DNA of 64,000 nucleotides from Norana najaformis (lineage: Eukaryota; Annelida; Clitellata; Crassiclitellata; Hormogastridae), in contig OZ029913.1 of assembly GCA_964023275.1 (NCBI GenBank), forward strand, positions 39,186,757 through 39,250,756. Direction: 5' to 3'. This document shows, one piece after another, positions 13,378 through 61,800 of the stretch (positions are counted from its first letter, which is position 1; each line of letters begins with the position of its first letter). Position numbers and translations under genes: made by a program. The notes below the pieces were generated by a model. The model saw only the letters and a program-made list of their open reading frames with translations, did not search any database and had not been told where the DNA came from.

Positions 13378-16300
13378 ATGGTCGTTGTCGGGGAAAAGAG
13401 CTACAAGCACATAGATGAGGGACCGATTAGGAACGTGAGACGAACCCGGAGTCCAACGGCGGCCGCTGAAGACTCCAGCGGTAGTGATGAAGACGGTGAG
13501 CTTGCGAATAACAACAGTAATGTTAAAGTATAATAGTCATAAAAATGATAGTTGTTTAAATTTAATAGAGTTATATTAACGAACAATGAATGAAGCTTTA
13601 GAAGGTGCTAATTTGAACAGTACTGCTGCTAGTGCTTAGCTTTGAAAACCGAGGAATGCAAACGATGTTATGTTATTTCAAGAATAAATAATGGCAAATT
13701 TGTAATCATTCAGCGATGAATAGGCAAACTTAAGCCTTGTTTGAGAGTGACAGAAAAATTTAATTTTTATTGTTGCTTGTTGTTTCCTGTTGCGTTCAAG
13801 ACAGCGGAATGCGTATCGGACCAGAGTATCAAGCAGAAATTCCAGAATTTAACCCACGTAAGTAATTGCTGTCTCTTCAAGAGCTCTGCCTTCTGGCCAT
13901 CTGGCTGTCACACTGTTTCCAAACCATGCAGAGATTTAGAAACAATGACAAGTCTAAATTCCAGATACACAGAAACCTCATTTTTGGCACTTCTTTGGTG
14001 GGAGGCATAACATGTATACACTTATGACAACATTGTGTTACTGCAACATGGGTTTTAAGTTCCATGTTCCTGTGTTATGTACTTAATATTGAATCTATTT
14101 TGATCTTGCAGAGGCTGAGCCGGAAGTGAAGACAGAGGCAATGCTTGTCTGGGCACCTCATCCAGATCCAACGCTCGATGCTCGAAGTAAGTTAACGTTG
14201 AATTTTAAACTGCGGTTGTAGTAATGTTGTAATAGTTGTCTGTGCTGTAGTTGTGGGAATAATGCATGAATTGCCCTCTGCCAATCAGTGTTGAAGAGAC
14301 AATGAAAGAATGTTAGCCATCCAGTTGTGTACCAGAAGTACTCTGGGAAGAGTTTGGGTCTGGTTTATGGAGGTGTCTAGTTTTGTATAATTGAGGTCTA
14401 TAGTGATTGGGCAATAGATGGTCTACCCTTTACCCACTGTAACCTGACTTCTGGTTTCACTGGATTTTGAACAGGCTATTCCACTGGATTATGAGTTTTT
14501 ACTAAGGTTTCATTTCAAGTACCACTGATTTATGCCTTGTGCATTTTTATAATGGCGTTAACCTGTCGTGTGACTATTATTGGCCCCGACTTGACTCCAG
14601 TGACCTTGAGACCTTACTTGTGTATCATTATTAAGTAATTCTGGCATTTAACAGTTGTTTTGTGTTTAAAAAATAAATTATATTAGTTAATGTTCTCTAT
14701 TTTATTTTATTTTTGATTTTTGAAAAAATGAATCATGATCTTAATGTTTTCTGTTTTATTTAAATAGTCGACGAATATTCAGCCGAGGCTAAGGAAAAGC
14801 ATGGCTACAACTTGGAACAGGTATGCCTTGCACAATTCGTAGTGATTCCAGTGCAGCGTTTCAACCGCTTTCTGTTTAAACTATCGAAATCAGTTGACTT
14901 CTTTGACTATTTTGGCACAGGTGTAAATGTTCAGAACTTGACTGATGTCTCTTACACTGGCGTATATTTCAGTCTAAGCAGAAAAACTTGAATCTTTTAC
15001 CCTTTCTATAATTCAGAGAGGTTCTTTAAAGGTGCTATATAATTGTTACTGTCGTCAGGCATCTGCGAGCTGTCGTAAGGTCATTATCAGATTTCGTATG
15101 TGTTGCAACACTGACCTGGGACTCAGAACATGAAGTAAATGTCAACTCTGGATGGGAATCCGTTGGTTGGGTTAAGTGTTTGTGAGAGCTTGCCGGTGGT
15201 GACTTTTCTATTTGAGCATTGTTTGCCAACTGATGAACCTTTTCTTCTGAACAAACTTCAACACCATTTAGGCTAGTGTAGGCAGAACATTTCATTCAAA
15301 CAAACTTTTAACACCATTGAGGCTAACGCAGGCAGCGCTTTTGTTTTTTTTAATGTCTAGATATTATTTATTTCTGCATTTATAAAGTACAGATATCTAA
15401 CGACTAATACATAACATAGCTGTTATTTGGGGTGTTTTGATGCAGTCGCTTGGAATGCTCTTTTGGCACAAACACAGCATCGATAAAGCGAAAGCAGATC
15501 TGCCGAATTTCACGCCTTTCCCTGAGGATTGGACTGTTGAGGATCGGGCACTATTTGAACAGGCGTTCGGCTTCCACGGGAAATGTTTTCACAAAATACG
15601 ACAAATGGTAAACAGCTTCTTTTGCACTGATGCTTCTTTTGGATGTGTTCAGTTGATTTGATTTAAAATTATTTAACAACATTAATTGACTGAACATCAA
15701 CAGCAATTTAATACAGATAACGGAATAAGAAAAAATCGATATCTGCAGTTATTGAGACAGAAGTCTTGCCTCCTCGTCTGCCTTTGTCGGCTATACTGTC
15801 TAATTCACGTGACCACTGTTTAAACAATTTGTAGCTTCCTGATAAGTCGATTGGTTGCCTTGTGAAATACTACTACTCATGGAAAAAGACAAGATCGCGT
15901 ACAAGTCTGATTGACCGTCAGGCCAACAAGATAGCAAACAGCCGAGATGTCAGGTAAATGCATTTCATTGAGAGGTAATTCATTAGATGGCACTGTCTAA
16001 ATGATACAACTCATTACATCAGGCTCTGCATTTGGTAACTGCTTTGCTACTAATTTTTTCTGTCTGGGTTGTGAATATTGTCATATAATTTTATGCTGGT
16101 TGTCATGGAGGCCCCGAATAAGAGGTTGGATACCTTTGACATGTGCCTCAGAAGGATTCTCAAAATCTTCTATACAGACCTTTTCACCAACGAAGAGATC
16201 AGAGCTAGGACAGCTACTGTACCAGAGTCTACCATCATCTGGGAATGTCAACTGCGTTTCTTTGGACATGCTGCACGGGCCCCACCTGAAGAGGACCATG

Positions 16301-19300
16301 TAAGAGTTCTACGGTCAGTGATGAATAAAGTCCCTAGAGACTGGAAGAGGCTGGTAGATCCAGCTACCTGGACCAGAACAGTTGAAAAGGATCTGGAACG
16401 ACATGGTTTTGGGCTGCATTCTGCATGGAGAAAAGCCCAAGACGGATGGGCGTGGTGATACATTGTGCTGCTCATTTGAGTTTGCACCTGGAGAGAGAGA
16501 CATAGTGAGAGAGAAACAGAGAGAGAGAGAGAGAGACGGAGAGAGAGAGACAGAGGGAGAGAGAGAGACAGAGAGGGAGATAGAGGTTGTCATGATTTTA
16601 CTGCTTATCGTGCTGTCAGTATTTTTTAACCTTGACAAAGCAGTATTGTTAAGTTTTAGGATGACGGTTATATTGCTAGTGATTGTAAGATGTGACTTGT
16701 TAAGGTTTATGAATGTATGCTTGTATGTATGATGTATGTGTCTATGTTTGTATATGAACATTTATATAATACATTTAAAGAACCTCTAGGAGTTGGTGAA
16801 ACATGGCTGTGTGATAGTTCTAAAAAGTTCGACATCAGGTAAGCTGAGAATGTTTCTTGAGATAATTATGGTCCAAATAACAGTTTTTGAGAATTTTTAG
16901 AAATATTTTGCTGTGTATTTTGTAGTGACGAGGAAATGGAGGCAAGTGGTTCCAGTGACAGTGACAATGATGCAGCCAAACAGAACATAGTTAGTACTTA
17001 TTTCTTGGTATGATCTTCGTCGTTTTATTAAAGTATTATCAGCGGGCAGTAAATTCACAAAAACGTAAATACATGTTCTTCTAAGCCTTAAATCTTAAAA
17101 TTTTATGTTAACTTCTTTTGATAAAGTCTGAGCAATCAATGGAGGGAGATCTTTACCTGGATCTGCATGTCCTGATGTCCTGGCTGCAAGTATCTTTCAT
17201 GAGCACTTTAAAACTGTTGTCTATTGGCAGAGGCACAGAGGATGTCTGAGTATGTTTTGAAGCGGTGTTGTATAAATGCTGTGAATAAAATAAATAAAAT
17301 AGTGATCCTGCTGAACCTTGGACCTTGTTGAGTGCCGCAAAAATTATTGGTGACTCTGTTGGATCTCGGATTAGGTTCTGTGAAGCTCTATGTAAATTTG
17401 CAGATACGTTACCTTTGTATATTGATTTACAATGAATAAGCATAAACTTTGCAGAAGGAGGAATCAAAGAGCACCATGTCGCGTGCTGGAATAGGCAGTC
17501 GTAAAGCCGACATTCATGCAAAGATGCGAAGCAAACGAAAGCCACCGAGAGGAATGTATCTGCATCAAGAGTGTCTGATGTCAGTAGCTACCGGGCCGCC
17601 TGGACAGGGTGATGCCATCCTGAAGCAGTACGAAGCTGAACTTGTTGAACTTAAGCGACAGGTTGGTAGGCCACTGCAATCCAACCACAGAAAATTCTTT
17701 TCTTACAGGTTGCATGGCTCAACAACAAATTGTCAATTTAACACTAAACATTGAAATTCTGTCCCTTGGTAGCACAGTTTTGTGTAAAGTTTATGAAGAA
17801 AAATTCAGAGTAACAGTATATAACGGACTGTGGAAACACTCAACTGATGTTAATGACACTGTGGCATCAAAAGACGTAGCACGTCGTAATAGAAAGTGGT
17901 TCAAAAAAGATGCTATGTACAAGACAAGATGACACGAGCAGCTCATGTTCTTTGTGTTGTATGGTAGGTTCAGAATAACAAGCAAGTTCTGAGCGTATTG
18001 AAGGAAAAATCATCTGGCGGAATCGACCAATTCAGAATTCCAGAGGTTAGTAGTGATAATTTCTCGATCTTCTGGAACAGTTGTCCACTCAGAATTAGAG
18101 CTTTACTAATGTCAAGAATAGCTGACGAATCTTCAGCTTATCTTAAAGATGTGCCATTTAAAATCTGTGAGGTAGCCATGTTTTGTTGCTTTGTGAGGTT
18201 CTTTAAAAGTAGTATCGCTTTAATGGGAATCATTGGTTTTGGGTAAAATTGGATAGATGTTCCTATAAGCAGCAGTCCCAGTTTGTATCTAGTTTGTATA
18301 TAGTGCCTTGTGAGAACCAGGTTTGTACTGCAAATTTATCTGCATCATTACTCTGCCAACCATCCCAGTCTTTGGCTTGCTTGCCTCCAGGCTTTGTGTA
18401 GCCCAAACTTGAGCAGTTGAAGATCTGCCTCGATCCTCCAGTCCATGTGTGCCTTGGTTGTGCAACTGGTCTCTTCCCACTCCTTGGGGACTGGAAATCA
18501 AGGCTTGGAATGCCCTGGCGTGATCCTGCCTACCATCACACCGTGCAAAGTGCCCAATTGTCTGGAGTATTGGACAGAACATGGAATTCACATGATTCCT
18601 GTTGGGCACCATTGTTGGAAGGCATCCAGTTTCTTCTATAGGAACTGTGAGCATCCAGGTCTTAGCCCCCAGGTCTCAGGAGCACAGGTGGTATGTAAGA
18701 TGTAAACAGGCACATTTTTATGTCTAACTGAATGGTTATGCTCCGAATTCCCCAAGGCTGTTCATACAGTCGTGGGCAATTGTTATTTGCAATCGGACCA
18801 AAGGCTTACTGCTGCCATGAGGCTTAACGTTCGACCTGAGTTAGTTGAACCGTCCTACAAGTTCCATCTTGTTTCCTGCAACCTGCATGTGTTCCAACAT
18901 TGGAGGTGGCTCCAGCATTGTCTGAATCTTGGTTATTGCCCACTTTTTATCTCCCTTCCAAACCATTGTGCTTCCTGGTCCAGTATTTCCAATGAAGGGT
19001 CCATAATCTCCAGAATTTCGACAAGAAGGGCCACATCATTGGCAGAGTCCAGGTTGAAGAACATCTCCAATCCAAAGTGTGCACCTGCTTGACCTTTGGC
19101 AACAGTCTGTTCCATGATCTGGTTTATTGGTGGCTAAAAAAAGTATGGGACAAGTTTGCAGTCCTGTCATGCTGCACTTTCCCCTCTGTCAATCTGGTCA
19201 CACTGTCAATACGTACAGCACTCGTGTTGTTGCAGAGCTCTGTTTTAAGGTCTGAAATCTTTCAGGAATCTTAAGGTAGAGGAACGATTTTTCTGCTGTC

Positions 19301-26843: not shown

Positions 26844-29800
26844 TCAGTGGAACTTGACGCGCCATCTGAGAACGAGATAGCACGCAATGCGCAGTATGAT
26901 AAAGAACGAACAGAGAACGATGAAGTCAACATAGAACTTGGCGTGCTCGACATCCAGTTCTCGAAGAATGGCATCGGCTTCTGTGAATATGCACATGTGT
27001 TTATCGTTCTTTTTTTCACAGTCCAGCGGTTCTCGGTCAAAGCCGTATATTGCCTGCAGTACGCCCTCAAATGAATATCTGACAACAGAAACACAACATT
27101 TTCAATGAAGGACAGGCATTCGTCAGTGGCTACCTGATCAGTAGTAGAACCTCTCTATGGTTGAAGCTGATAACCTGCCCACCCTCTAAACAGGTGGGTC
27201 AGCCCACAATGGCAATCAGGCATTGATCACATGTGACCAAACTCCATCAAAAAACAACACATGAAATCTATGAGGAACTTGAGAATAAATGTGTATAAGA
27301 TTAAATTCACCAGGTCCCAGCACCTCTTGGATGATCTTAAATGGTGTTATATAAACATCCATAGTAATAGTGACCCAAGGAGGTTGGAAGAAACCAATTA
27401 GAAAAACACTAGTTGCTAAGTTTAGGGGCATACATCCTTTAGCCCATCCTCTGAAACCGTCATTGCTGTGGGTATGTCGAGCAATGAATGAATGGGGAAA
27501 GTGCATCTTAGCTTTAGCAGTCTGACTCTGTGAGGAAGGGGAAATCAAGGCATACTAGGTTAATAATTCACTGGTCAACATAGAAATCGTTACTGACTGG
27601 AAAAGGCCCTAATGTGTAGCATCTTGGTGTGCTGAACACGAATATAACCATAAAAATTTTTTATTGGCTCTCGTTTTGAAAATATTTCATATAGTTCATT
27701 TTTTATGTTTCACCATGTAAATTTATGCAGTAGGACTGCGACAATATCCTAAATAAGTCTAGAATGATGTAATATTCCACCTCATTGTATAATCCCATCA
27801 TGGACACATCATGCACAGTTGATTACGTCATTTTCTGATGCAATGTAAAACTACAGCCAGTCGGCTGCTGACGTAAGATGACGTCAACAGTGTACTATAT
27901 AAAGCGAGTCGGAACGGTTGAGCATTTACAATATTACAGACTTTGTGCGAGACAGTTTAAGTTACTGTTTTATAAAACTATTATTACTTTATCCATTTAG
28001 ATACAATACAGAACAGTAATGCCTCGGAAGTGCGTAAATACTGTGGACAACTTTTGTTACATTTGTGGGGAAGTGACATTTGCCAACCAGAAGAAAAGTA
28101 TCACTTATCAAGTCAAGAAGGCATATCATGCTTACTTCGAATGCAAGGTTGGTGACCCAGACAAGCCATGGGCCCCGCATATATGCTGTGCTACATGTAC
28201 AACACAGCTTTCACAGTGGTTGAATGGCAAAAGACCATCAATGCCGTTTGCAGTTCCCATGGTGTGGAGAGAGCAAAGCAACCACGTAGATGACTGTTAC
28301 TTCTGCTTGGTTCCTCCTCTTTCCGGTGGAATAACGAAGCAAAAGAAGTCGACAATAGTCTACCCAAACATTCCGTCAGCATTGAGACCAGTTCCACATG
28401 GTGATGGACTTCCTATTCCAGAACCTCCAGCAGAATATATTTTCCTTGATTCATCTGATGAGGACAAGGGTGAGCCGACATGTTCTTCTCCTGGTCCGTC
28501 AGCGTGCAGTGATCCCGATTTTCACTGTGGTGCATCATCAACCCCACACAGAATAACACAGGAAGAACTAAATGACCTTGTTCGTGATTTGGACTTATCC
28601 AAAAACAAGGCAGAATTGCTAGGATCAAGACTCCAACAATGGAATCTTCTAAAAGAAGATGTCACAATTACTTCATATAGAAAGCGCCATCAGCAGTTGG
28701 AACCTTTCTTTATGAAGGAAGGTAATCTGGTATTCTGTTCCAATAATGACTACCTCATGAATGCCTTACAGATCACTCATGACCCACAAGAATGGAGACT
28801 CTTTGTAGACTCTTCAACACTGAGTCTTAAGGCTGTGCTTTTGCACAATGGAAACCGTCTTCCATCTATTCCATTAGCGCATGCTGTCCACATGAAAGAG
28901 ACATACGATAACGTAAAACAGCTACTGCATTCCATTGACTATAACAGGTACAAATGGCACCTGTGTGGTGATTTGAAGGTAGTTGCCATTTTAATGGGAC
29001 TGCAGCAAGGATATACAAAATATATGTGTTTCTTGTGTGAGTGGGATAGCCGAGCAAGAGAGTTGCACTACGTGCGGAAGGAATGGACTCCCAGACAAAA
29101 CATGGCAGTTGGACAGAAGAATATCCAGCACCCAGCTCTGGTCGAGGCTCACAAAATCCTACTACCACCCCTTCACATCAAACTAGGTTTGGTGAAGAAC
29201 TTCGTGAAAGCCATGGACCGCACTTCGCCAGCTTTCCGATACCTGCATGAAAAATTCCCTCGACTCAGCGAAGCAAAGATTAAAGAGGGAGTTTTTGTGG
29301 GTCCTCAGATTAGAGAACTCTTCAAAGATGACCGCTTCAACAACTTGCTGGAGGGTGATGCGAAACAAGCATGGAATGCTTTTCGTCTAGTGTCTACAGA
29401 CTTTCTGGGGAATGTTAGGGCAGAAAACTACAAGGAACTAGTAGAAGACATGCTCAAGCAGTACCAGAAATTTCGCTGCAATATGTCTCTGAAGATGCAT
29501 TTCCTTCATTCCCATCTGGATTTCTTCCCTGACAACTGTGGTATGGTTAGTGACGAACATGGCGAACGTTTTCATCAAGATATCGCAACAATGGAGCAAA
29601 GGTACCAGGGAAAATGGTGCACTACAATGTTGGCTGACTACTGCTGGACACTCCGCAGAGATGTACAAGAGACAGGCAAAAAAATCTAAGAACTAGTCTA
29701 TGACCTGGTTTTTACAAATATTAACTGTAAGTGTATCACTATTGGCATGCATTGTGCGATATAAAATTACTTCATTTCAGATTACAAAAAAAACTAGAGC

Positions 29801-32800
29801 CAATTCGGCATTTTCACTGTCATATTCGTGTTCAGCACATACAAATTGATAAGAACTGACTAATTTCATTTCAGTAACATGACTTTTGTAAAAATTTGTT
29901 GTCCAGTGATATAATCACTCCATCATGGAACCTAATCTTACACACAACCAGTAATCTAGTCCTACACAATATGAGCAAATCAATCTCATATACATAGCAA
30001 GTAATCTAATCTTTTATACACATGAGAAATCTAATCTTATGAACATTAGTAATCTAATCTTATAAACAATATGAGTAATCTAATCATATAAACAATATGA
30101 GTAATCTAATTTTAAAAACAATAACAGTAATCTAAGCTTATAAACAATATGAGTAAGCTAATTTTACAAACAATAATAACAGTAATCTAATCTTATATAC
30201 ACAATGAGTAATCTAATCTTATAAACAATAAGAGTAATATAATATATTATATACACAATGAGTAATATAATCTTCTTTTATACATGATGAATAATCTACT
30301 AATCTGACCTGATGTAGGACAGGTACGAGAGCCACTGAAGGTATTTTGGCATCGTGTCAAAGTTGACAAAGAACCCACTGAAGAGTAGAACAGGGATGGA
30401 TGTTACCGGACCAAGGAATACAGCCACCTGCAAACGAAGCATTTCCACTCCAATGATTATTAACAGCCTCCAAAGCCACAGCATCACAAAAAGGCATCGC
30501 CACACTGTGAAATAACTCTAGCGCATTATCAGACATGACAATGGAAACCCAACAACTACCAAATACCCTACCTCACTCACCAATTACCATACACTAACTC
30601 AATTAAAATACTTGCTGACTCTTAACTACCAATTACCTTATCTTACCCACCAATTATCTTAACTTAACTATTAATACCAATTTATTTTATTATTTATTTT
30701 ATTCAGAGCGCATATAACTTACCTTCTAATTAATTATGTGCTTGCCTACTAATTACCTAATTTTATCCACCGGTAGCACGTCTGTAGGCTAATAAGTTCT
30801 CTACTAATTACCTTATCTAACCTACACTGCTAGAAATTTTGCTGTTTTTACAATTTGTGTCCAATCACTGGCAGCAATGTACAAAGGAAACAACCGTAAA
30901 AAACAGCGGGCCATAGTTAATGCTAGATAGTAATTTTACAGAGATGTGACTGTAAAACCTTGTGGAGAAAAACTGTACAGTGAATGTTGTTTAACCGCAA
31001 ATTACGCAGGACTATTGCTTCCCTTGGCCGTTGAGATCTTCACCCATAATCCCGGGCAGGAGCCTCACTATACCAAGGGGACGGGTCCCAGCAGGATTTA
31101 GTTACCAACAAGTGGCATCCAACCCTGCAACAGGCATGCATCTGCCGGGAACTGCCCAGGAACACAGCTACAGTGCATCCTGGGTTAATTACCAATCATC
31201 TTATTTACTAATTACCTAATTTTACCCACCAAAATGAGTGGTGCATGTGTAGGCTAAATAGTTGCCACCTAATTTCTTTATCTTACCTACCAGTTACCAT
31301 GGCCCAGCTGAAGAATTACCTGCAGTGAAGTTCCGGCTCCGATGAGCAGGCCGAGTGACTGAGCGACAAGCGATGTCTGAGTGGAAAGTGTCAGAAACAT
31401 AACAAATCGCACAAAATCGTTCGGCTGATTCGTCATCCAGTAGACAATGCTTCCATACACTAACGGAAATATGATCTGGAAACAATGGCGGTAACAGTTA
31501 TAGTAAACCATACCAAAATCTCTTGACAACGGTACACAAAGTGCGTCACATTACTTACACGTTATCATCCAAATCATATTACAGTTACTCCTGCAAGAAA
31601 AATAGGAAAAAGGAAGAAAAACAAAACGGAAGAAGAAAGGTAAAAGGTAAACCAAAAGCAGCATCAACCAAATCACCAATTCTACCAGCTTCAGAACACT
31701 GCAGCAATTGTCAATCAAACTAAACAGGTGGAATTTTACCTGAAATGGCATGTCAGCCAATGTTTTTGCCATGTAGTACGCCTTGAGGCTGTACCAGTAG
31801 TTGAGATGCTCTCGCACAAACACGGCCATTTCCGTCGGAACTGAAAAAACATTAACATGTAACTGTAACCAACACATTCACTGTTAAGTCTCTAGCAGAC
31901 TAAAGCAAGATAACAGAACAGCACCACCTAAACATTCAACCGTTAAAGACACTCATTAACAGGGTAAAAGGTTCCAAGGATTTGTACTGTACATTAGCAA
32001 AATGAAGAACAAGTCTAATCGATTGGTAATCTCATCTAACCTAAAGCCAATATACCAGTGTGTATTGTGTACTAGAAACAATAAAAGCAAATCTACTCTA
32101 AAATAATCTAACAACTTATGAATTTCTTATTTCCAAGGAATTCCATGTATGTTAGTTAGCAAGTTGAAAGGATAATCTAATCTAGTAGAGTCAAACAAAT
32201 TCCATGGTGCCAGCACATGTCAATGGCAGAAGCACTGACGTACATGTGAGAACGGTCGGCATGAGCGCTGTGAACATGAGAAACAGCATGCAGAAGAAGA
32301 GACAGCCAGTGTTGTTGTAGGCTTTGCTTGACTCGTTACCAATGCCCAGGTAAAGCAGACCAATCAGAATTCCAATTGTCAGGTGTGAGATTAGGCGCAG
32401 ACGAGTCAACGTCTGCAACATACCGTAACAAAATATAATGTCAGGTAATATAATTTCAAGGTAGCGTAACAAGGTCATGTAACATAATGTAACATAAGGT
32501 AAGGTAAGGTAAGGTAATGGAACATAAGCTAATGTAACATAGGTACAAGGGTGGATTCAATGGGGCCAATCCAGGCCGCCCTTATAAAGGCACGCAATTC
32601 AGTTTCCCTGACCCTAAATGGTTTTGTTGAGGATTGCATATTAGAAAGTCACAAGATATCCTGGAAAACTAACAGGAGTAAAGAAATGTTAACGAAATTC
32701 CTGGAAAAGTCAAGAAAATCTGAGAAAGTCAGAAAGAAACAAAGGAAAGGTCCTCAAAAACTGTGCTCAGTCAAAGAAGATCACAAGAAAATTGCTGACA

Positions 32801-56492: not shown

Positions 56493-56772
56493 GTTCCATA
56501 GCAACAGAATAAGTTATTACCATGTTCGTTGCTGTAGTGACACATTGAATTGAATGATAACCACGCCCGTTGTCATGGCAAAGCGATGAATGGGTACCAT
56601 GCCCGCTGCTCTAGTAACACTATAAATAAGCACGATACCGGATGCCATAGCGAAATTAAATGATTATATGTCTGTTGCCATGGCGACACGATAATTACGA
56701 CACTTATCCGTTGCCATGACGACAATCGAATCTTCGATGTAGAATTCGGTCGTCGACCGTTGCTATAGAGAC
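56493..56772. promoter_or_regulatory. Array of eight RFX X-box-like palindromes
   Basis: Units of the form GTTGCCATGGCGAC begin at 56493, 56528, 56569, 56605, 56641, 56674, 56710 and 56759, with spacing of 33-49 bp and often a CACGATAATTACGAC-like filler. The best units are 56674-56687 and 56710-56723. The array covers the stop codon (56763-56765) and the following 3' flank of the ETS gene. GTYNCCATRGNAAC is the known RFX site, but a tandem repeat or MITE origin is equally possible. Confidence 0.6.
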
Positions 56773-58794
56773 TGCAGATGATGGCGAGGAATTTTCTCGA
56801 GGAGTTTTTCCAGCGAACAGGTGAAGGCGTACTGGTATCGCTTTCCGGGGATCTTGATCATGAATCCTTTGTCGTAGTAGTAGCGGAGGGCTCGGCTCAG
56901 CTTCTCGTAGGTCATCAGGGGTCGGTTCTTGTACTGACCCCAGAGGCAAGCCACCTCCTCCGTGTCGAAGATCTTGAACTCCCACTTGCACCCCGTCCAG
57001 GAAATTATGTGGCGCTTTCGACGATCAAGTAGCAACAGAAGGATGAACTGCCAGAGACGCAGCTGTCCATTACCTATTTCAGAGAAACAATTTGATGTCC
57101 TATATTTTATATCATTATTATCATTATCCATGGGCGTCCGCACGTTGATACAAGGGGATCGTCTCCTGATTTTAAATCTAAATATACAAAGTTACAAAGA
57201 ATATTATTCTTAAATACTGAAAGTAGGTTATGCTGACGTCTGTTTTGCTTGCTTATTAACCCATACAGAGTGTTTATATGTAAATGTACGCTGGATCGGT
57301 GGCACTGGCACAAGGGCACTTGTATATTGTGCCTTCATCTGCTATCACCTATAACCTCCCTAAGTTTGAACAACAAATGTGACAGCTGCTTTCATAAGAT
57401 ATACTGTTAATACAGAGGGGCAAAGAAACCCTCATCGGCTTAGCAGCATGGCGTTGATAAATCTAGACGAGAGAAAGCCTGGTTTGCAACAGCAGACCAG
57501 ATGCTTTGGATGAACGACAAAGTGTATATGTCTAAGACTTCGGATCCTCCTGCTACCTGTATCCAATGCCATCTTTGTAAAACTAATGATACTAATTACA
57601 AATGGTGAGCCGTCTGCCTGGAACGAGATGGGCCATGAAACGTTGAGCTGATGAAAGCAGTTTTGATTTGAAAGGGGGCCTTTGAAAACACGCAGTGCAG
57701 TCGTCAAGTGTTTAGTTTAACGACATAGTTCGTATGCTATAGGAGTTAAAGATTATCTTAATATAGGTGATATTCACTGCATCAAAGACTAGGTAGTTTT
57801 ATTTCAAAATTGTTATTTTATAATTATAATTGTTGATCACGCAATTCAGGTTTGTCAGAGACAAAATCTGCGGTAGCTGTGCTGATATGTTAGCTTCTTG
57901 CTATTACTATTAATTATTTTGACTACAAGCAACAGGAAAGTTCACAGCGGTGAGTGATAATAAATATGAAATGATACATTTTTCTACTTAATTATATGCA
58001 CCACTAAATTTGGTCGCGGAGAGATTGTAGCAAGATTTCATAATGAATTAAATTGCCTTTCTTAATGTATAGTCTTTGTATGTATCTGGCTCCTTGCATA
58101 GCGTTTTTTGTGAACCTCTCTTGGGCGCTAAACATTGCTAACCAACAGATCTTGTGTTCTCTGTGTTTCTGACGCATTTTCTGAACTTCCTTCCTGAATT
58201 GTTTGCCCTTCTGTCGCAGATTTCTGCTGGCGCCCAATGTCCTAATCATAATCGTTTACATCGTCATCATCTTCATAGTCATTGCCATCATTGTTACCAT
58301 CATCCATCATCACCACCATCATCAGCTTCAGTATCATCATTACGTATCACCTATGATCATCATTTATCCATTCGTTCTTTCGTTCGTTCATTCATTCGCC
58401 GTCCTGATGTTGGGCACCACCATTGATATGGTCCCAAAATAACATAAATCGTCATCATTTTAGTCGTCGTTATCACAGTTATTCCTACCGTTGTTTTCGT
58501 CGCTGTTTGGTTTCTGCGTCTCTATCGAATCTGAACGGACTGTGACCGAATTCAGTCGAGCGTTACGGTCCCCCAGAGGTCGTCTGCCAATCGACTGACA
58601 ACTCATAGTCAGTTGTTGACCATTCGTTGTCAGTGCTTGACCACTCGAGGTCAGTTGATGATCAATCGACGCATGATTTCGTTTGCATTCTGTTTGTTTG
58701 AAAACATAAACCAAGAAAACAGTCGTCTGTAAAAATTTCAACAGTTGTATAAAGACACATACACACGCGCGCGCACAGGCCCCTGTATATATAA

Positions 58795-58859
<65 letters not shown>

Positions 58860-61800
58860 TAAAACTACACTGGCGGATTTCGTGTTATAAAAATTTGTCA
58901 ATGCTGCCTTCGTGACACTCAGTGAGGCAAGTCATAAAGCCATTCAGTCATGACTCAACTTCGTTCGTTCGTTCATTTATTAATTCGTTAATCTGCCTGC
59001 AGTTACTTAATTAATCGTTCGTTTATCCATCCATCCAATATTTAATTAATTCCATCTTTCATACATCCAGTCCTCTCTCCCTTCATTCATCTCCATTTAT
59101 CTTTCCCTTCCTTCCTTCATCCCTCCTTCCTCCCTCCCTCATTCGTTTCTTTTTGTTCATTCTTTCATTCATTCGTTTACTAGTCAAATAATCAAATAAT
59201 TAATTCTTATAGTTCATCTACCCATCCCTCCATCTATTAACTTCCCTCCTCCTTACTCTGCTTGTTTTCCGCCAACCCACTCACCCATCCAGTCGGACTA
59301 CAATCGAACAAATTCTCGAAGACAAAAGCAGATGGCAGACAAGACTACCGAAACGACCCTGCCTACCATCCGTGAGTATTTCCAAATGTTCCCACAAGAT
59401 GTCACCAGCAAACGGTGGCGATCGCGACAGCAGCAGTCGTTTGCCGCCATCGATCAGCCGTTGACCAGTGCTGCCAGACAAACAGCCGACCACTCCTATG
59501 TCCAGGTTGAACTGCTGGACTGACCATTGCAGCCACTGAACCACATCCACTTCGCTCCACTTCAACGGATCTGTAGCATCAAAGTAAGATGCTAATGAAA
59601 GACGACGACGACGACGACAATGATGACGATGGTGACGATGATGATGAAGGCGACGACGATGATGATAATGTAGATGACGATGATGATGTAGATGACGATG
59701 ATGATGATGAAGATGACAACGTCGACGATAACAATGACGACGCTGACGATGAAAATGAGAAAAATTAATGCTAGAGAAAGTGGTGGTGGAGGAAGAACAG
59801 GATGAGGAGAAGGAGAAGAGGGTAGTAGTAGTAGTAGTGACTGTACCAGTAGTATCTACTAGTAATAGTAGCAGTAGTACTGAAGTAGCAACAGTAGTAT
59901 TAGTAGTAGTGGCCTCCTAGCAGTGGAGAAGGAGGACGAGATGCCTGAGAATTATAAGAGCCGAAGAAGCATTACAAGGGAACCGATTAGATGTGCATAA
60001 TTAGTTGCTTTTAACTGGTTTGTGACTTCTATAGCACCGTTACCATGATGCCCAAGGCAAGGTAACAAATATTATAGGGCCCACCTTCAGGTATCTGCAG
60101 ATCGAGGCGGACTTTGTCGAAATCTGCAAAAAGGGTTCGAATTGCTGTTTTCATCTTTTCTCTCGTAATCGTTTGCTTTTCTTCCTCTTCCGCTTTTTCG
60201 GAACCATCCGCGGAAAAATCTAAAGCAAAACACAAGAACGAGCATGCGTTGTTTCTGTGTATAATTCAGAGGCTAAGGAGTAGCTGCGCATTCATGCACA
60301 TATCCGCCCTCTAGCGAGCGTAAAAGATGTCGCTCAGCGTCATACAACAGGGCGACATCTAGCGAATGAATTTAGCAGTTAAAATTTAGCAACCTCTCAC
60401 TTTCATACTGTAACCAGGAACTAGGAAATAAGTTAAATTTTAGCTTTAGCCGTAGAGTTGTGTTTTATTAGGCCGACGTTTGATAGCATGACTGAGCATT
60501 GACTTTTGGCCTGGGGTCGAACTCCCAACCACAGCCAATCCAGCTCTGCAAGATTAGCGTAATTAGCATAAGCATAGGCCTACTTCTCTTCTTCAAGGCA
60601 TCGAACTTCGAGAAGAATGAAGTTTACAGGAAAGAAATATAAGGAAGTTCTCATATCTGCAATGCATAATACATTATGTATTAATTATGAATTCAATTTG
60701 ATCCCAGCATTGCTCCGTCTGAATTAAGTTACCCCAATATATGCATATGTTCCTGTTAGGTTTAATGTACAAATAACCTACATATGCAAGTATGGTATAA
60801 CTTAACCTGGTATGCAAATAGGCCTATACCTAGAGACCCACGGTATACAATTAACCTTAACATACTAGTAGGTCTAAAGGTCTGTGGTAAAGTATAATAC
60901 CTAATTGCCTAATGCACAATACGCAAGCACAGACCAAAAGGGCTAAGTTTATGGTACAATTAATCCTAATAAGCAACTCGAACTATATACATCCTCGATT
61001 TAACGTGGCGCCCATCGTCTCTTATACGAAGGCGTCTTTAAATACAGCCTACTAATATCATTACTATACAAATTATCACAGCGAGCAAGAAGGCCTGCGG
61101 ATCTATGGTGGGCCTAAAGCTATTCGGATAGCTCTTTAAGCCTATAATGTCTACCTTTGTAATTAGGGCCTACAGAAAACGGCTATGTAGGCCTACTGCA
61201 TAAATGCATGTGTGTTTATTACATATCATGTTTACTGTTGGAAATGAGAGGCAATGACGTTGTGTCCATATAAAGATTTGTTTTCTGCAAACATGTAAAG
61301 GCCTAACTATTATACATATATGTGCCTAACTATGTAGCATAGGTCTAACCGAGTAGTAGGCCTTTTAATTCCAATTACGTTACACTCCACCGATGAACGA
61401 CAGTCCCTATACTAGCAAATAGAGCGCAGGAGGAATATATAACACATGGCCGTGACTTTGGACTGTTTTCCTCGTCTGTTGATATGATTCTTAACAATTT
61501 TAATTTGTAGTTAATTTGTCAATATTTACGCGGTATACTTATTCGGTCCTTTATTAGTTAACTAACTGCGTACTAAATATGCATATACTTACTTGACTCG
61601 ACGATGGTTTCCAAGTTCGCCCTGAGCACTGACGGTGAGTGATAATGTGTGAAACTGTTACTGTTTTCGTTTATTTTTAACGACGTTAAATTCGAATGTG
61701 GTCGGCTATGATTTAATTCAACGTCAGGTGATAAACCTGTTGAGAATTGATTAAAGAGAGTTGACGCAGTTTGAGAAAAGAAAGAGTGCAAAAGGTCTAG

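Follow-up and report, generated by a model that had tools for sequence, protein, structure and literature searches.

Chapaev3 transposons are described by Zhang et al. (2014), in the available part of PMC4079192, as having CAC..GTG ends, a TWA target-site duplication lying between an A and a T, and a transposase with C(2)C, LH, and H(4)H motifs; the same excerpt gives 556 amino acids (aa) for the transposase of Garfield_BM and argues from sequence for recent bursts and horizontal transfer. Kapitonov and Koonin (2015), as excerpted in PMC4411706, place Chapaev3 in the Transib superfamily and describe an N-terminal zinc domain, Chapa, reported in Chapaev and at the N terminus of RAG1, and an extract of a further source (PMC12730594) unites EnSpm, Mirage, Chapaev, and Transib under the name CMCT. 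Transib and the RAG recombinase, the enzyme that cuts antibody genes, are both distantly related to Chapaev3. Here we analyze a 64,000-nucleotide stretch of the Norana najaformis genome (the window; assembly GCA_964023275.1, contig OZ029913.1, positions 39,186,757 to 39,250,756), in which a 2,340-bp element lies at 27569..29908 on the + strand. With a probability that we put at about 93%, this element belongs to a Chapaev3 family of cut-and-paste transposons (CMC/Transib group) that expanded recently and may still be mobile, and it is itself a somewhat decayed copy; as such, it would be a new member of an already known transposon type.

Several findings support this assignment: copies number about a thousand and share their termini, the target duplication measures 3 bp, and the transposase is conserved, with candidate DDE residues, the C(2)C, LH, and H(4)H motifs, and a predicted RAG1/Transib-type fold. 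The first-pass annotation of the window had proposed a DNA transposon, young or under selection, with ends fitting the CMC superfamily, and had suggested a genome search for copies sharing its termini. That search (608 Mb, 17 contigs) bears out a young, multicopy cut-and-paste transposon of the CMC group, with 955 matches to the left-end 35-mer and 939 to the right-end 32-mer at ≤3 mismatches, against 0 for each reversed-pattern control. From the ends that face low coordinates (527 left ends on the + strand and 543 right ends on the − strand), we take the number of elements or fragments bearing an end to be at least 1,070. A whole-element search returned 1,159 candidates, of which 40 were scored, and all 40, the window copy included, are essentially full length and ~99% identical. 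Outside these 40, a sample of 20 copies with an exact left 35-mer, taken in coordinate order along contig 1, comprises 13 full-length copies diverging by 0.4 to 1.1% from sibling L005, 4 that end before the right end, and 3 with internal rearrangements or interruptions, of which L066 is also without the right end. Among the copies read, full-length siblings mostly measure 2,351 to 2,355 bp.

Both ends given in the first-pass annotation hold when copies are compared, and the 5'-CAC..GTG-3' termini of Chapaev3 are present: the left end, CACTGGTCAACAT, sits at the equivalent of position 27569 in all 28 loci compared (window copy included), and the right end is exact at the equivalent of 29908 in 25 of the 28, the exceptions (L015, L020, and L023) having altered final bases. 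A further 40 copies with CAC..GTG ends form a set picked for exact ends. The imperfect terminal inverted repeats, delimited by repeat alignment and genome search, extend ~110 nucleotides (nt) per side, the left one (27569..27677, + strand) starting 5'-CACTGGTCAACA and the right one (29790..29908, − strand) ending TGTTGTCCAGTG-3'. As had been claimed, they match in ordered blocks (27569-27580 with 29897-29908, 27589-27603 with 29864-29878, and 27628-27677 with 29790-29839), and when 2,690 pairs of 152-bp stretches were drawn at random from the window, 2 reached their local score of 87.

The first-pass annotation had also called for copies to be compared to settle the length of the target-site duplication, and this comparison gives 3 bp, of TWA type in the majority. 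Two sets of 40 copies each were used, the first having both ends exact among 64 scanned and the second chosen only for exact ends. Exact 3-bp duplications flank 22 of 40 copies in the first set, versus 6.3 expected from mismatched pairs and with no excess at lengths of 2, 4, 5, or 6, and 26 of 40 in the second. Of the resulting 48 duplications (80 copies), 34 are TTA or TAA; an A precedes 37 of the 48 and a T follows 39, such that the TWA duplication between 5' A and 3' T described for Chapaev3 appears here as a majority rule only. When the longest flank match from 0 to 9 bp was sought in 28 loci, it was 3 bp in 17, 2 bp in 5, and 1 or 0 bp in 6. Within CMC, a 3-bp duplication of TWA type makes Chapaev3 the most likely subgroup.

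The same data speak against two other superfamilies. The target duplication of hAT elements is 8 bp, and that of Kolobok is the 4-bp TTAA; an 8-bp flank match occurs in 0/28 loci, and exact 4-bp matches occur in 0/28 loci, in 0/40 copies of the first set (which overlaps these loci), and in 2/40 of the second.

Many of the copies without an exact duplication show the same triplet displaced by 1 to 3 bases, which could reflect longer duplications, extra bases, or chance. In nine loci (L062, L068, L078, L088, L095, L105, L111, L127, and L139), the triplet lies 2 bases off the element's right end, as might arise from a longer duplication, from bases carried over from the donor site, or by chance. 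Extra bases between end and duplication were rejected as a regular feature: the first set showed an excess at 2 nt (8 of its 18 non-exact copies, against a null rate of 0.11), but significance was not reached in the second (5/14, p = 0.20), and we claim no mechanism for it.

The transposase is encoded by an open reading frame (ORF) of 556 codons at 28019..29689 on the + strand, identified from the ORF listing and the comparison of copies, with a TATA-like sequence read by eye at 27894..27904 (+ strand), ~115 bp upstream of the start codon, as a putative promoter. In an alignment of 96 sequences (the window protein plus 95 of 120 listed relatives), the C(2)C (C337-C340, 29027..29038), LH (L385-H386, 29171..29176), and H(4)H (H494-H499, 29498..29515) motifs, named for Chapaev3 in the available part of PMC4079192, are present in 96/96, all on the + strand. 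Likewise invariant in 96/96 are the candidate catalytic residues D264 (28808..28810), D318 (28970..28972), and both E513 and E516 (29555..29566), either of which may supply the glutamate of a putative DDE triad within a predicted RNase H fold. The catalytic core, residues 176 to 555 (28544..29683, + strand), is predicted to be RAG1/Transib-like, its best fold matches being RAG1, HzTransib, and BbRAGL, although at an identity of 9 to 15% to these chains over the aligned core; earlier publications already connect Chapaev3 with RAG1, and the predicted structure agrees with them. Upstream, at 28019..28432 (+ strand), lies an N-terminal zinc-binding-like domain in which C13, C16, C57, C60, H89, C93, and C96 are invariant across the alignment. 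By predicted fold this domain weakly resembles ZAD, and it is perhaps the published Chapa domain.

Several observations weigh against the Chapaev3 assignment. Of the 80 copies, 32 (including that in the window) have no exact 3-bp duplication, 14 of the 48 that do have a triplet other than TTA or TAA, and the flanking A and T are a majority here versus "always" in the excerpt of PMC4079192. Further entries for RAG1 and HzTransib have VIA scores as low as 14.8 and 12.2, respectively, the latter close to the 11.7 of the P element. At the sequence level, the protein has no Pfam match up to an E value of 10 except Retrotrans_gag (E = 0.11), and neither a single-sequence nor a profile search of the PDB returned RAG1 or Transib. 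The assignment is made from published descriptions of Chapaev3.

A second line of evidence may bear on how recently the family has moved. Regardless of element orientation, ends facing low coordinates outnumber those facing high coordinates (1,070 versus 824; p = 2e-8 if ends are independent). An artefact of the search was rejected as the source of this bias, as the reverse complement of the left pattern, the only pattern so treated, gave the mirrored counts of 428 and 527. Flanks were surveyed in 36 loci (L059 to L094), 16 of which were picked because an end seemed missing; the high end is missing in 13 of the 36 and the low end in 3. In 10 of the 13, the sequence past the break repeats the low flank with a score above the maximum of 200 shuffles (by one point in L075 and L081, and as a simple repeat in L090), whereas L080, L084, and L087 show no such repeat above shuffles; nor does any of the 3 loci missing the low end, 2 of which are informative (the stretch at L067 ends inside the element). 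Repeats of 11 to 60 bp of low flank at or near the break of high-end truncations were seen in L066, L071, L073, L075, L079, L081, L085, L086, and L089.

The best reading of these truncations, we infer, is that an insertion-bearing allele was joined to an empty allele by a process running from low to high coordinates, in which case roughly a fifth of insertions would be heterozygous (an excess of 246 out of 1,070). That the truncated copies with a flank repeat are instead real products of transposition or repair is unlikely. Such an origin would suit the position of the repeat, which mostly begins at, or a few bases from, the truncation, and its length in some loci (~42 bp in L079), but the bias of 1,070 versus 824 tracks the coordinates of the assembly rather than the orientation of the element, and no repair process would know assembly coordinates. 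Moreover, a few bases distinguish the two flank copies in L071 and L066, as expected of two haplotypes.

Returning to family identity, the nearest competitor to Chapaev3 is EnSpm/CACTA, likewise within CMC, which we consider very improbable. The first-pass annotation had not recognized the protein as a CACTA TnpD; the lack of a CACTA match in Pfam weakly agrees, with EnSpm kept as a rival. EnSpm elements likewise have 5'-CAC..GTG-3' ends, 3-bp duplications, and C(2)C and H(3-4)H motifs (PMC12730594, in part), and because CAC ends with a 3-bp duplication are common across CMC, they do not separate the two; however, the A-TWA-T preference, the single ORF of ~560 aa, the LH motif, and the N-terminal zinc-type domain match the Chapaev3 description as excerpted, and no Pfam transposase family was matched, an absence that is itself weak evidence. 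A Transib or RAG1-like (TransibSU/ProtoRAG) transposon, for which the top fold matches (RAG1, HzTransib, and BbRAGL) would speak, is barely credible: the duplication is 3 bp rather than the 5 bp typical of Transibs according to the accessible text of PMC4411706 (exact 5-bp duplications in 0/40 and 1/40 copies of the first and second sets), core identity is just 9 to 15%, and no second ORF of at least 110 aa is listed inside the element, hence no RAG2-like partner.

The window copy itself is damaged. Relative to 27 siblings, chosen as its best matches, it has 8 private substitutions and, at 29661..29662 (+ strand) near the end of the ORF, a 14-bp deletion private to it among the 28 aligned copies; one extra base is common to it and 2 other siblings. 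The deletion shifts the reading frame, so that the ORF has 556 codons with altered last residues. The first-pass annotation was thus right about the 556-codon ORF at 28019-29689 and wrong that it carries no frameshift, and its description of the copy as intact must be abandoned, given the changed C terminus and the lack of an exact target duplication. Nor is its suggestion of selection supported, since all 6 substitutions in the ORF, albeit a small number, are nonsynonymous; the accumulated damage looks neutral. A domesticated host gene maintained by selection, to which an open frame of 556 codons within an intron might point, is as good as refuted by ends that recur about a thousand times (955 on the left and 939 on the right, where a lack of other copies had been named as what would count against a transposon), the 6/6 amino-acid-altering substitutions, and the frameshifting deletion.

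Elsewhere in the family, full-length frames exist. Among 48 loci scanned, 41 were read with both ends, a set biased toward best matches, and 22 of these 41 carry an ORF of 563 codons (563 aa), the window copy not being among them; the 22 comprise 20 of the 28 best-matching loci and 2 of 13 others, and in L021, L072, and L077 the scan did not locate the ORF start.

The transposase would bind both inverted repeats, perhaps dimerizing through its N-terminal zinc domain, and its RNase H-fold active site would excise the element, which would then be joined into A-TWA-T targets with a 3-bp stagger whose repair would yield the target duplication. The window copy would have landed antisense in its intron and subsequently gathered damage, and, if still mobile, it would probably need the transposase of a sibling. 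To our knowledge, activity in cells has not been demonstrated for any Chapaev3 element, and no such case stands out among the matches listed in the openly licensed literature, which is weak evidence of absence. With about a thousand near-identical copies, some full-length frames, and signs of heterozygous insertions, the present family is a good natural candidate, in which the chemistry of cleavage, the choice of target, and the part played by a zinc domain linked to RAG1 could be tested. We propose tentatively, and at well under even odds, that this family is transposing now, with about a fifth or more of insertions heterozygous in the sequenced animal, and that in its transposase a RAG1/Transib-type core is fused to a zinc dimerization domain resembling ZAD, making Chapa a relative of ZAD. 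The spread in fold scores and the narrow margins of two flank repeats slightly reduce the odds of this proposal and of the Chapaev3 assignment alike. No proposal of Chapa as a ZAD was found among the matches listed in the openly licensed literature. If true, the origin of RAG1 and of its non-core region could be tested against this family as an active outgroup found in nature. What makes the family of interest is how large and how young the burst is, the possibility that it is still active, and the weak hint of a ZAD.

The element lies within an intron of an ABCG-type gene on the − strand, at 27079..30308 by coordinates read by eye. These limits follow from the flanking exons, as the minus-strand exon ending at 30309 reads in frame across the element into the exon starting at 27078, and an upstream exon of the gene (32191-32556) matches ABC2_membrane, confirming the earlier placement of the element antisense within a transporter intron. 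A 26-bp tandem repeat of ~12 copies occupies 29966-30274, beginning 58 bp past the right end of the transposon. Elsewhere in the window, minus-strand exons encode Ets (56763-57191) and SAM_PNT (Pointed; 59281-59916) domains, perhaps of one ETS-family gene, and a + strand ORF at 16075-16458 was recognized by eye as resembling a fragment of a non-LTR (long terminal repeat) retrotransposon.

Among known systems, EnSpm/CACTA elements resemble this one in their CAC..GTG ends and 3-bp duplication but differ in that no CACTA-type Pfam match is found here and in that the target motif and LH are nearer Chapaev3. Transib, ProtoRAG, and RAG1 share the predicted fold of the catalytic core, along with the CAC ends and C(2)C and H..H motifs that are CMCT-wide in the extract of PMC12730594, whereas the element here has a 3-bp rather than a 5-bp duplication, 9 to 15% core identity, and no RAG2-like partner. 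The closest likeness is to the Chapaev3 elements Merrow, Garfield, and Conan (PMC4079192, in the part available), which have the same CAC..GTG ends, 3-bp TWA-type duplication between A and T, ~556-aa transposase with C(2)C, LH, and H(4)H, total length of ~2.3 kb, and relatives in several animal groups. From these it differs in a sizeable minority of non-TWA or displaced target duplications, in a one-exon transposase (as in most other Chapaev3 elements in that excerpt, Merrow and Garfield having two exons), and in its ~thousand copies, of which the sampled full-length ones lie ~1% or less from one sibling.
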